Shown piece after piece: positions 1,433-5,599 of a stretch of DNA of 44,725 nt (positions within the stretch are counted from its first letter, which is position 1; every line of letters starts with the position of its first letter). This DNA is from Chloroflexota bacterium (GTDB lineage: Bacteria; Chloroflexota; Anaerolineae; Aggregatilineales; J027): the NCBI GenBank assembly GCA_003697365.1, contig RFGP01000063.1, positions 1 to 44,725 of the forward strand, in the 5' to 3' direction. The notes beneath the pieces are model-generated. The model did no database searches. It was not told where the DNA came from and saw only the letters and a list, made by a program, of their open reading frames with translations. Position numbers and translations under genes: made by a program.

Positions 1433-2380
1433 ATGGTCTCGCTTATACAACAAGCTATCCAAGTAAAACACTTAACTGAGAGCATAGGGAAAACCCCACT
1501 CATTGGGTTTCAAAGAATCACAGATCACCTCCCTGCTAATGTGCAAATTTTGGCGAAAGCAGAATGGCAAAATCCGGGAGGAAGTGTTAAAGACAGAGCA
1601 GCCCTCAATATCATTACGTCAGCAATAAAAGAAGGAAAACTAGGCCCAAATATCACGTTACTCGATAGCACAAGCGGAAATACAGGCATTGCCTATGCCA
1701 TGCTTGGTGCAGTATTAGGCATTAAAGTTCATCTATTTGTGCCCGCTAATGCGAGTCCAGAGCGCATAAAAATATTACGCGCTTATGGCGTGCATCTCAC
1801 ACTTACTGATCCTTTAGAAGGATCAGATGGCGCTATTTTGGCTGTACGTCAACTTGCTGAGGCTGAACCCGACCGCTATTTCTATGCAGATCAATACAAT
1901 AACCCAGCTAATTGGCAGGCACATTACAATACCACTGCGCCCGAAATTTGGGAGCAAACACAAGGTGCTATTACACACTTTGTCGCAGGTCTAGGCACAA
2001 CAGGAACATTTACTGGAACGGCTCGTCGGCTAAAAGAATTCAATTCATCTATTGAGGCTATATCAGTCCAACCCGATTCTCCCTTTAATGGTCTAGAAGG
2101 GCTGAAGCATATTCCTACTGCCATACGTCCCGGTATTTATGATGAGACTTTGGCCGATCGAAATTTAGAAATTGGTACCGAAGAGAGCTACCAAATGGCA
2201 CGCCGACTTGCCCGTGAAGAAGGCTATTTAGTAGGAATTAGCTCAGCTACAGCGATGGTTGCAGCATTGAAGATCGCTGAAGAAGTCGCAAAAAGCGGAC
2301 GTTCAGCAACCATTGTGACCATTTTTCCTGATAACGCTTACAAGTACCTTAGCGATGCGTTCTGGACAAGTGAACTATGA
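1433..2380 (+). CDS. cysM: PLP-dependent cysteine synthase, CysM-like
   Basis: ESIGKTPLIGF; NPGGSVKDRAA (PLP lysine); DSTSGNTGIAYA; GLGTTGTFTGTARRL; VGISSATA. Neighbours encode JAMM, Ubl and E1 proteins as in CysO-dependent cysteine synthesis. Confidence 0.9.
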   Translation: MVSLIQQAIQVKHLTESIGKTPLIGFQRITDHLPANVQILAKAEWQNPGGSVKDRAALNIITSAIKEGKLGPNITLLDSTSGNTGIAYAMLGAVLGIKVHLFVPANASPERIKILRAYGVHLTLTDPLEGSDGAILAVRQLAEAEPDRYFYADQYNNPANWQAHYNTTAPEIWEQTQGAITHFVAGLGTTGTFTGTARRLKEFNSSIEAISVQPDSPFNGLEGLKHIPTAIRPGIYDETLADRNLEIGTEESYQMARRLAREEGYLVGISSATAMVAALKIAEEVAKSGRSATIVTIFPDNAYKYLSDAFWTSEL

Positions 2381-2805
2381 AACTCTTGTTGCCCAACGAG
2401 CTTTACCCAAATATCGTATCTCATCTGTGTTCAACTTACCCAAACGAAGGTGGCGGCTTTTTAGTTGGCAAGATACACCAAGACGAACAACGAGTTGTTG
2501 AAGAAATTTATCCCGTTGAAAACACCTTTGCTGAACAAGAGCAATTTCATCGTTTCTTAGCAGAGAGCAGCGCTTATCAACAAATCGAAGACATGGCCGA
2601 TGCGCGCGGTTTAACATTGCTGGGCTATTATCATTCTCACCCTAATGTAGCAGCAGTTCCATCTGAATATGATCGCATTCATGCATGGCCATTTTTTGCC
2701 TATTTGATCGTCTCAATACGAAACAATCAAGCTGTTGAAGAACGCCTTTGGCAGCTTTCTCAAGATCGAAAGTCCTTCATTGAAGGCGAGCTATTGTTTA
2801 TCTAA
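2377..2805 (+). CDS. JAMM/MPN+ metalloprotease (Mec+-like)
   Basis: Complete JAMM motif HSHPNVAAVPSEYD (HxHx7Sx2D) with an upstream Glu (NEGGG). ATGA overlap with the cysM-like gene. Confidence 0.9.
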   Translation: MKLLLPNELYPNIVSHLCSTYPNEGGGFLVGKIHQDEQRVVEEIYPVENTFAEQEQFHRFLAESSAYQQIEDMADARGLTLLGYYHSHPNVAAVPSEYDRIHAWPFFAYLIVSIRNNQAVEERLWQLSQDRKSFIEGELLFI

Positions 2806-2847
2806 AAACAACACACACAACACCTAACAATTAAGGAGAATTTTTCA

Positions 2848-3573
2848 ATGCCTACAATCAAAATTCCTACCCCGTTACGTACCTATACTGGCGGAAATGC
2901 CGAAATTGAGGTCAGTGGCAATACTGTTGCGGCTATTTTAGAGGATTTGGTCGCGCAATATCCTGATCTGAAGCAACATCTTTTCCATGAAGGTCAGCTT
3001 CGTGATTTTGTGAACGTATTTATTGGTGAAGATGATATTCGCGAACGCGATGGTATCAATACGGCCGTGCAAGCAACAGATCGTTTACGTATTATCCCTA
3101 GTATTGCCGGAGGGACAGATGAAGGCATATTAAGCCAAGTTGATCATAGCGCGATCCGCACAAATCAAGCAGCAATTATCACTCTACTGTTGTTTGCATT
3201 TATTGTGCAACTACCATTGCTTGTTGGGTTTGTTTCTTTAACGCTATTCATTGGCACAATGAATGAGCGTTTGAACTTGTTTAAGCTGCTATATCAAAGT
3301 GTTTTGCGCCCACGCGGTATTCTCAAACCTGATATTAAACCTGATAATCCTGAGCCCCATCGTTTTTCTCAAGGACTTGGTGCCACATTCACAGCCTTAA
3401 GCACGCTATTTCTAATCATAAAACTCTCAGTAATTGGGTGGGGGTTGGCATGGCTTGTTATTGTGTTAGCGGGCTTAAATTTATTCACAGGTTTTTGCGC
3501 AGGCTGCTTTGTATATTATCAACTTAGCAAACACAACGTGCGCGGATTTAACAAGCGTCCCATACGTATATAA
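2848..3573 (+). CDS. Ubiquitin-like MoaD/ThiS/CysO-type sulfur-carrier domain fused to a DUF4395-like membrane domain
   Basis: Residues 1-89 read as a MoaD/CysO beta-grasp domain ending ...DRLRIIPSIAGG, followed by TM segments (IITLLLFAFIVQLPLLVGFVSLTLFIGTMNERLNLF) and RFSQGLGATFTALSTLFLI...GLNLFTGFCAGCFVYYQL, which resembles DUF4395. Confidence 0.82.
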   Translation: MPTIKIPTPLRTYTGGNAEIEVSGNTVAAILEDLVAQYPDLKQHLFHEGQLRDFVNVFIGEDDIRERDGINTAVQATDRLRIIPSIAGGTDEGILSQVDHSAIRTNQAAIITLLLFAFIVQLPLLVGFVSLTLFIGTMNERLNLFKLLYQSVLRPRGILKPDIKPDNPEPHRFSQGLGATFTALSTLFLIIKLSVIGWGLAWLVIVLAGLNLFTGFCAGCFVYYQLSKHNVRGFNKRPIRI

Positions 3574-3584
3574 AGAGGTATGCC

Positions 3585-3986
3585 ATGCTAGAACGATTAT
3601 TCATAGTTGTTTTCATTATTACGGCTTTCGTTGCAGCATATTATCTATTCAAATATTGGCAACTTAAGCAAGTGCAAGCACAGGCAAAACTTGGCGATGC
3701 TCTAATGAATGAAATACCCGAAGGTCAGTCAGCGATTTTGTACTTCACGGCTGAGTGGTGCAGTGTTTGCAAACTCCAACAACAACCCGCAATGCAGCAA
3801 TTTATAGCTGAAAACCCAAATGTTAAAGTCGTTACCATAGATATAGAGGTTATGCCAGAAGTAGCGCAACGATGGCATATCCTGAGTTTACCAACCACCA
3901 TCATTCTAGATAAAAAGCATGTCCCAATTGCTATGAATCATGGTGCAGTATCTGCTCGCAAACTTGCCCAACAATTGGAGAGATAG
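3585..3986 (+). CDS. Membrane-anchored thioredoxin-like protein
   Basis: N-terminal TM (LFIVVFIITAFVAAYYLF) then FTAEWCSVCKLQQQPAMQQF (CxxC) and LSLPTTIILD (cis-Pro loop). Confidence 0.88.
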   Translation: MLERLFIVVFIITAFVAAYYLFKYWQLKQVQAQAKLGDALMNEIPEGQSAILYFTAEWCSVCKLQQQPAMQQFIAENPNVKVVTIDIEVMPEVAQRWHILSLPTTIILDKKHVPIAMNHGAVSARKLAQQLER

Positions 3987-3992
3987 ATTCAT

Positions 3993-5183
3993 ATGACAGT
4001 TTCATTAATTCACGCAACTGATGTCGAATTATCACATGAGGAAATCAAGCGCTATAGTCGGCATTTGATCATGCCAGAAGTTGGCATAGAAGGACAGAAA
4101 AAACTTAAAGCCGCTAAGATTTTATTGGTCGGTACAGGCGGACTAGGTAGCCCAACAGCCATGTATTTAGCAGCAGCTGGCATCGGCACACTAGGACTTG
4201 TCGATTATGATGTTGTCGACGTTACGAACCTACAACGCCAAATCATTCATGGTACAAAAGATGTTGGTGTCCCTAAAATAGAATCTGCTGCCTCTACGCT
4301 TGCTGATTTGAATCCTCATGTGAAAATTATCAAGCATGAAGTGCCACTAACAAGCGAGAACGCACTAGAAATCATCAAAGATTACGACATCGTTATCGAT
4401 GGCACAGATAATTTTCCTACACGATACCTCGTTAATGATGCCTGTGTAATGCTGGGCAAAGTAAATATTTACGGCAGCATCTTTCGCTTTGAGGGGCAAG
4501 TTTCCGTATTTGGTGCCGAAGATGGCCCATGTTATCGTTGCTTATTTCCTAGCCCTCCACCACCCGGCTTAGTTCCAAATTGCGCCGAAGGCGGTGTTCT
4601 AGGAATTTTGCCCGGTACCATTGGCACTTTACAAGCAACTGAAGCCATTAAAATAGTGCTTGGTATTGGAAAACCGCTTATTGGTCGATTACTGCTATAT
4701 GATGCGTTGGAAATGAGCTTTGATTTTGTCAAAGTAAAAAAGAATCCCCATTGCCCCGTCTGTGGAGAAAACCCCACAATTACAGGTCTGATAGATTATG
4801 AGCAGTTTTGCGGGATGCCTGCACATGATCACAGCCAACACACTGATCTAACACCAGAGGTAATTATCCCCGCTATTTCCGTCAAGCAACTAAAATCACG
4901 TCTTGATAGCGGAGAGCAACTCGTAATTATTGATGTACGTGAAGCACATGAGCGTGATATTAGTGCCCTTGATGTTGCTATTCATATACCCAAAGGGGAA
5001 GTCAGGCAGCGTCTTAGCGAAATTCCACACAATGTTCCAGTGGTTGTCCATTGCCGTACAGGTGGACGTAGTGGAGAAGTCGTAAAATGGCTTATGGAAG
5101 AAGGCTACACCAATGTCGTTAACCTTGCAGGAGGCATTAACGCATGGGCGCGCTTAATTGATCCAAGTATTCCTGAGTATTAA
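3993..5183 (+). CDS. moeZ: MoeB/ThiF-like E1 adenylyltransferase with C-terminal rhodanese domain (MoeZ-like)
   Basis: RYSRHLIMPEVGIEGQKKLKAAKILLVGTGGLGSP; DGTDNFPTRYLVNDAC; CPVC zinc motif; rhodanese loop VVVHCRTGGRSGEVV. Confidence 0.93.
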   Translation: MTVSLIHATDVELSHEEIKRYSRHLIMPEVGIEGQKKLKAAKILLVGTGGLGSPTAMYLAAAGIGTLGLVDYDVVDVTNLQRQIIHGTKDVGVPKIESAASTLADLNPHVKIIKHEVPLTSENALEIIKDYDIVIDGTDNFPTRYLVNDACVMLGKVNIYGSIFRFEGQVSVFGAEDGPCYRCLFPSPPPPGLVPNCAEGGVLGILPGTIGTLQATEAIKIVLGIGKPLIGRLLLYDALEMSFDFVKVKKNPHCPVCGENPTITGLIDYEQFCGMPAHDHSQHTDLTPEVIIPAISVKQLKSRLDSGEQLVIIDVREAHERDISALDVAIHIPKGEVRQRLSEIPHNVPVVVHCRTGGRSGEVVKWLMEEGYTNVVNLAGGINAWARLIDPSIPEY

Positions 5184-5260: not shown

Positions 5261-5599
5261 ATGAGTAACATTCAGAATATTAGCCCCACACAGCTAAAAC
5301 AACGCATTGAGCAAGGTGAGGAATTTATACTGATTGATGTTCGTGAAGATTGGGAATTAGAAATTAGTCGTTTAGATGCAGCCCAACAAATTGTGCTCCA
5401 CACGTTACCTGAGCGCGCTGAACAAGAAATCCCTAAAGACAAGCCTGTCGTGTTTATTTGCCGTAGTGGTGGAAGAAGCCTACAGGCAGCGCTTTTTTTG
5501 GCACAAAACGGATGGGATACACAATATTTATATAACCTAGATGGGGGAATTTTGCGTTGGGCTCAAGAAGTAGACCCAACGCTGCCCACAAACTATTAA
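5261..5599 (+). CDS. Rhodanese-like sulfurtransferase
   Basis: FILIDVREDWELEISRL; active-site loop CRSGGRS; LDGGILRWAQEVDPTLP; upstream SD GGAGAG. Confidence 0.92.
   Translation: MSNIQNISPTQLKQRIEQGEEFILIDVREDWELEISRLDAAQQIVLHTLPERAEQEIPKDKPVVFICRSGGRSLQAALFLAQNGWDTQYLYNLDGGILRWAQEVDPTLPTNY

Follow-up and report, generated by a model that had tools for sequence, protein, structure and literature searches.

Introduction

In Mycobacterium tuberculosis, MoeZ charges the ubiquitin-like (Ubl) sulfur carrier CysO, CysM adds O-phosphoserine to yield CysO-Cys, and Mec+ cuts off the cysteine (PMC3227635). An operon type that combines ThiS/MoaD, E1-rhodanese, JAB and cysteine synthase genes, named type 4c, has been described and includes Chloroflexus (Iyer et al. 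2006, PMC1779556).

Several carriers are made with their diglycine (GG) inside a longer chain. DR0402 (DRJAMM) of Deinococcus radiodurans cuts a MoaD-MoaE fusion, leaving Gly at the new C-terminus, and the fusion's activity depends on DR0402 (PMC8832034). The M. tuberculosis MoaD-MoaE fusion, MoaX, must be cut after GG by a protease that PMC4326299 leaves unnamed. The JAMM-type protein QbsD is reported, in work cited by PMC6006322, to expose the GG of the capped carrier QbsE, and for the capped carriers PtmS2 and PtmS3 uncapping by the JAMM protein PtmS1 has been proposed (PMC6006322). Fusions of a Ubl to its own E1 are also known, as MoaD-MoeB (PMC11237513) and Ubl-ThiF (PMC1779556).

Here we analyse a CysO-type carrier domain that is fused to a DUF4395 membrane domain, encoded in a 44,725-nt stretch of a Chloroflexota genome (hereafter the window). 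Comparisons across related operons lead us to propose that the fusion is probably a CysO carrier precursor, cut at Gly89-Thr90 by the adjacent JAMM and feeding a cysteine route.

The fusion and its operon

The fusion is encoded by one intact 241-aa frame with an ATG start (2848-3573, + strand). IPSIAGG occupies residues 83-89, and the codons of Gly88-Gly89 (3109-3114) close the Ubl domain; the encoded product runs beyond GG through an 8-residue linker, and its C-terminus is not GG. The CxGC motif of the DUF4395 domain is formed by Cys217 (codon 3496-3498) and Cys220 (codon 3505-3507). A preliminary description, made from the letters of the window, had recognized a MoaD/CysO-type domain ending in IPSIAGG, a frame continuing without a stop into a DUF4395-like region with a CxxC, and a JAMM gene immediately upstream. 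Profile and structure comparisons bear out all three points (Table 1), and the JAMM gene ends 42 bases before the fusion.

Table 1. Coordinates of the fusion's parts and of the surrounding genes in the window
Feature	Position	Strand	Evidence and remarks
Cysteine synthase, CysM-like, PLP enzyme, first operon gene	1433..2380	+	PALP E=1.7e-69; NCBIfam cysM 348 bits (below the 394 cut-off); solved CysM 2bhs E=1e-63
JAMM/MPN+ metalloprotease, Mec+-like	2377..2805	+	Prok-JAB E=2.6e-21; solved relative 2kcq E=1.6e-16
CysO-type ubiquitin-like sulfur carrier domain, residues 1-89, ends IPSIAGG	2848..3114	+	Pfam ThiS on residues 4-89, E=4e-10, above the curated cut-off; closest solved relatives by sequence CysO of Amycolatopsis (4n6e_B) and M. 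tuberculosis (3dwg_C), top Foldseek matches CysO in agreement; proposed cut after G89
Linker TDEGILSQ	3115..3138	+	without in-frame start codon; first half in low-pLDDT stretch
DUF4395 membrane domain, four long hydrophobic helices, CxGC at 3496-3507	3139..3573	+	Pfam DUF4395 (PF14340) on residues 98-227, E=1.5e-30, 106.6 bits against a cut-off of 24.5
Membrane-anchored thioredoxin (WCSVC)	3585..3986	+	Thioredoxin E=1.7e-11; domain predicted cytoplasmic
MoeZ/MoeB-type E1 adenylyltransferase with C-terminal rhodanese	3993..5183	+	ThiF E=4.4e-83, Rhodanese E=8.7e-17; MoeZ/MoeB models
Stand-alone rhodanese, possible sulfur donor	5261..5599	+	Rhodanese E=1.2e-15

In an AlphaFold2 model of the fusion, residues 86-94 are the least confident inner stretch (pLDDT <50), as would be expected of a loose and accessible linker. 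A search of plasmids gave no match spanning most of the fusion. Within 3109-3133 of the window, the two glycine codons, GGA and GGG, together read as a Shine-Dalgarno-like GGAGGG, a few bases before an ATG at 3119 that lies out of frame and meets a stop after 4 codons. Some relatives with separate genes likewise have the GG codons at the position where a DUF4395 ribosome-binding site would lie, and the GGAGGG near 3109 is possibly a relic of a separate DUF4395 start.

The neighbouring genes all lie on the + strand and follow the order that is conserved in Anaerolineae (cysM, JAMM, Ubl, DUF4395, membrane thioredoxin, MoeZ-like E1-rhodanese). With a ThiS/MoaD, a JAB, an E1-rhodanese and a cysteine synthase, the genes at 1433-5183 correspond to operon type 4c; their order recurs in most homologous loci. 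The JAMM protein carries the zinc-site motif HSHP(x6)SxxD, with E24 (2446-2448), H86-S-H88-P (2632-2643), S96 and D99; among operon homologues, E24 is kept in 76 of 77 and H86, H88, S96 and D99 in 77 of 77. The window's genome encodes a second JAMM-like protein of 177 aa (L227 3617-4150, G000:C17), alone beside a gyrA/parC-like gene.

None of the six operon proteins scanned contains an E2-like domain. The fusion may act like a ubiquitin precursor, yet we do not class it as ubiquitin.

Fused and separate forms among relatives

We searched the phylum (400 genomes) and the class (396 genomes), and additionally scanned named genomes; the named relatives are nearly all Anaerolineae or other Chloroflexota assemblies. 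In the cysM-jamm-ubl-duf4395-trx-moeZ operons, Ubl and DUF4395 are mostly adjoining separate genes. An in-frame fusion was present in eight of the searched phylum and class genomes, the window's included, and in 15 of 66 JAMM operons of the named-genome scan (about a fifth), the rest being separate; the possibility raised beforehand that homologues might always be separate is thereby removed. After removal of overlaps there are 17 fusion loci, nearly all from different Anaerolineae assemblies, with two sharing one assembly. The survey of this architecture and of its co-occurrence with JAMM, which the preliminary description had suggested, has a uniform outcome: a JAMM gene stands in the operon of all 17 (15 of 15 named loci, the window and G318), and P[STA][IVM]AGG is kept in every one.

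On a tree of JAMM, Ubl and E1 from 77 genomes (a quick tree with SH-aLRT support only), the DUF4395 fusion has at least 7 separate origins. The window's sister genus has the split form, with GGR and then a stop. The linkers of the 17 fusions are 3-17 residues long and have no common sequence. In 10 of them (the window and 9 of the other 16) there is no in-frame ATG, GTG or TTG between GG and the DUF4395 core, so that DUF4395 can be made there only within the fusion; its separate translation from an internal start is thus ruled out for these loci. An internal start is possible in the remaining 7, being an ATG in only one of them.

A second kind of fusion forms a separate clade. In L086, L088, L092 and L097 (G283, G304, G325 and G152), a CysO-type Ubl is in frame with a MoeZ-like E1-rhodanese, and PSVAGG lies inside the chain, about 90 residues from its start; a JAMM gene lies upstream in three of these genomes and elsewhere in the genome in G283. 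These Ubl-E1 fusions follow the same pattern as the DUF4395 fusions.

One fusion locus (L063/L338 in G522, assembly OLB13) has a break of the Ubl frame near residue 47 and its JAMM in two pieces. On these grounds it should be read as a sequencing error or a decaying locus.

Tails past the diglycine and the presence of JAMM

Among CysO-type carriers encoded in JAMM operons, 68 of 80 extend beyond GG (29 by 1-3 aa, 28 by 4-60 aa and 11 as fusions) and 12 of 80 end at GG, in genomes that were drawn partly through CysO matches, so that sampling was not random. Up to GG the sequence is nearly fixed; after GG the tails are unrelated to one another, and several are simply out-of-frame translations of the following gene (GRWASGRSITQR in L048, for instance). 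Some JAMM loci encode a second Ubl paralogue, which ends at GG in 13 of 13 cases. It ends in ASAAGG, ASISGG and the like and lies upstream of cysM (many of L073-L081, L085, L093-L095, L361, L373 and L375). Given the 12 tailless CysO carriers and the uniformly GG-ended second paralogue, JAMM allows tails without enforcing them.

As a tail-free control, the remaining ThiS/MoaD proteins from genomes with JAMM proved unsuitable, since many of the MoaD are MoaD-MoaE fusions and several of the ThiS carry 2-residue tails. We therefore used genomes without JAMM instead. From 40 Chloroflexota genomes with no or a weak Pfam Prok-JAB match, 24 had ThiS-family proteins, and 65 proteins were examined; of these, 62 have nothing after GG, 3 carry a single extra residue and 0 have at least 4, in genomes that are mostly draft assemblies, at least 95% complete, some with weak Prok-JAB matches (G862 at 1.7e-7). 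In two of the three exceptions the extra residue is Gly and may belong to the motif.

In JAMM-containing genomes, by comparison, 115 of 193 ThiS/MoaD proteins have tails (Fisher 1.5e-16 against the JAMM-less set, relatedness ignored). When counted by taxonomic family, tails of at least 2 residues are present in 17 of 22 JAMM-containing families versus 0 of 9 JAMM-less ones (Fisher p=1e-4, the families being not fully independent). Within the one family that has both kinds of genome, 17 of 64 proteins have any tail with JAMM versus 0 of 19 without (p=0.009). For the MoaD-like class alone the numbers are 28 of 51 versus 0 of 25 (p=5e-7), the tailed ones being largely MoaD-MoaE fusions. Together these statistics control for relatedness only partly.

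MoaD-MoaE fusions, with about 157 residues after GG, are common in JAMM-containing Anaerolineae relatives (L161 at G000:C154 and many of L137-L160), and the window's own genome carries one. ThiS proteins with GG and exactly two further residues (AK, SV, TW, LV, MW) are found in L201, L202, L203, L207 and L208 of JAMM-containing genomes. In L217 (G318:C65:42600-47700), a ThiS-like domain ending in ISGG is in frame with an Era-like GTPase, with 300 residues after GG.

The membrane partners

DUF4395 and the membrane thioredoxin stay operon partners even when the Ubl is a separate gene. Both DUF4395 cysteines are invariant in 43 sequences, and an AlphaFold2 model built with 43 sequences has a mean pLDDT of 95.8. 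A fold search of the PDB and viral models with DUF4395 returned nothing below E=0.8, and searching PDB sequences with a profile likewise gave no match.

Positive-inside charge counts place the N- and C-termini of DUF4395, together with the thioredoxin domain (the latter counted over 44 homologues), on the cytoplasmic side. By this rule of thumb, they would face the compartment in which E1, CysM and JAMM are expected to work. Our guess is that DUF4395 and the thioredoxin have a thiol or sulfane-sulfur role.

Proposed maturation of the carrier and its alternatives

In the proposed mechanism, the cytoplasmic Ubl domain would be made with the DUF4395 membrane domain at its C-terminus, and JAMM would cut the Gly89-Thr90 peptide bond to give a free, GG-ended carrier. 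DUF4395 would stay in the membrane beside its thioredoxin, and the freed carrier would be adenylated and thiocarboxylated by the MoeZ-like E1-rhodanese. The charged carrier would then pass its sulfur to CysM, yielding CysO-Cys, whose Gly|Cys bond JAMM would cut to set cysteine free.

A JAMM that cuts Gly|Cys in each cycle would also be able to remove other extensions. Because it would have to cut the peptide bond after GG at each turnover, any extension past GG would be tolerated; consequently, the stop codon after GG would be dispensable, stops would drift and fusions with the following gene would recur. A dispensable stop predicts tails where JAMM exists, repeated fusions and an invariant GG.

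The preliminary description had left two outcomes side by side, either cleavage after GG, plausibly by the JAMM, or a permanently tethered domain that has lost the canonical chemistry. Comparative genomics argues strongly for the first (the GG is invariant, JAMM is in all fusion operons and tail drift is almost absent without JAMM) and disfavours the second. A tethered Ubl would act without a free C-terminus, for example by docking E1 or CysM at a membrane sulfur source, and the constancy of DUF4395 and the membrane thioredoxin as partners, even of a separate Ubl, makes a membrane-side role plausible. However, a domain released from thiocarboxylate chemistry should lose its GG, which all 17 fusions retain; E1 and JAMM are still intact; and in the window's genome only the fusion, a MoaD-MoaE fusion and a partial match were found, with no other CysO-type protein. 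We consider permanent tethering unlikely.

Cleavage by another protease is also improbable. The enzyme that cuts MoaX has no name in PMC4326299 and the window's genome has its second JAMM-like gene elsewhere, either of which would suit a protease outside the operon, but it is the operon JAMM that accompanies all 17 fusions, and genomes without JAMM have hardly any tails. The remaining explanation, that a sequencing or assembly error merged two genes, could draw on the draft state of the assembly (220 contigs) and on the separate genes of the sister genus. Against it stand 17 fusion loci with differing linkers, 10 of them lacking an in-frame DUF4395 start, and a clean open frame; a missed stop or frameshift near 3114, the concern voiced beforehand, is incompatible with these loci and this intact frame, and we reject such an error as extremely improbable. 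Cleavage of the fusion by its operon JAMM is thus the reading that we carry forward.

A wider generalization is conceivable, and we offer it tentatively, as something that may well not hold. In Anaerolineae and their relatives, JAMM could be the general maturation protease of Ubl sulfur carriers, making the stop after GG neutral wherever JAMM is present, so that what follows a carrier's GG could be a random tail, DUF4395, MoaE or the carrier's own E1. The release of a membrane-tethered CysO precursor could then couple the supply of carrier to a membrane sulfur/thiol module.

Should this cleavage take place, maturation of the carrier and release of the product would both rest on a single metalloprotease reaction, which would explain, on genome data alone, why tails on bacterial ubiquitin-like proteins come and go freely. 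It would also offer a model for the origin of the fused ubiquitin precursors of eukaryotes, as fusions cost nothing where JAMM is present, and it would link DUF4395, an uncharacterised membrane family, to protein-thiocarboxylate cysteine synthesis.

Comparison with known systems

The preliminary description regarded JAMM processing of such a precursor as an undescribed bacterial route. This was overstated, as JAMM-type exposure of a buried carrier GG has been described in bacteria for QbsD and for DR0402/DRJAMM. The general idea that JAMM matures capped or fused carriers is not new, and the DUF4395 cap is a variant of it. In the mostly open-access literature, we came across neither a carrier capped by DUF4395, nor a report that such a cap arose repeatedly, nor a genome-wide link between JAMM and tails.

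QbsE/QbsD and PtmS2/PtmS3 likewise combine residues after GG with a JAMM-type protease in the same genome, adjoining in the case of PtmS2. Unlike the carriers here, their caps are one or two residues long and they belong to natural-product pathways. The MoaD-MoaE fusion cut by DR0402 and MoaX have, as here, a GG buried in a two-domain protein, and for DR0402 it is a JAMM that makes the new C-terminal Gly. There, however, the carrier is joined to a soluble partner, MoaE, from the same enzyme, whereas the fusion here joins a membrane domain, DUF4395, to a CysO-type carrier. MoaD-MoeB and Ubl-ThiF involve other carriers, whereas the Ubl-E1 fusions found here are CysO-type with PSVAGG inside the chain.

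Eukaryotic ubiquitin precursors and an archaeal ubiquitin precursor, the latter processed by the JAMM enzyme CsRpn11, are Ubl proteins whose C-terminal extension is removed by a deubiquitinase-type enzyme, as is proposed for the fusion here. Unlike for those precursors, the operon here has no E2/E3-type conjugation partner, and a sulfur carrier is the most likely product.

A further close counterpart is the CysO/CysM/Mec+/MoeZ system of M. tuberculosis. The same four activities are encoded here, the Ubl domain is closest to CysO, and Mec+ is a JAMM-type enzyme that cuts Gly|Cys. Unlike in the M. tuberculosis route, most carriers here are capped after GG, by 1-50 residues or by a whole domain, and DUF4395 and a membrane thioredoxin are additional members of the operon.
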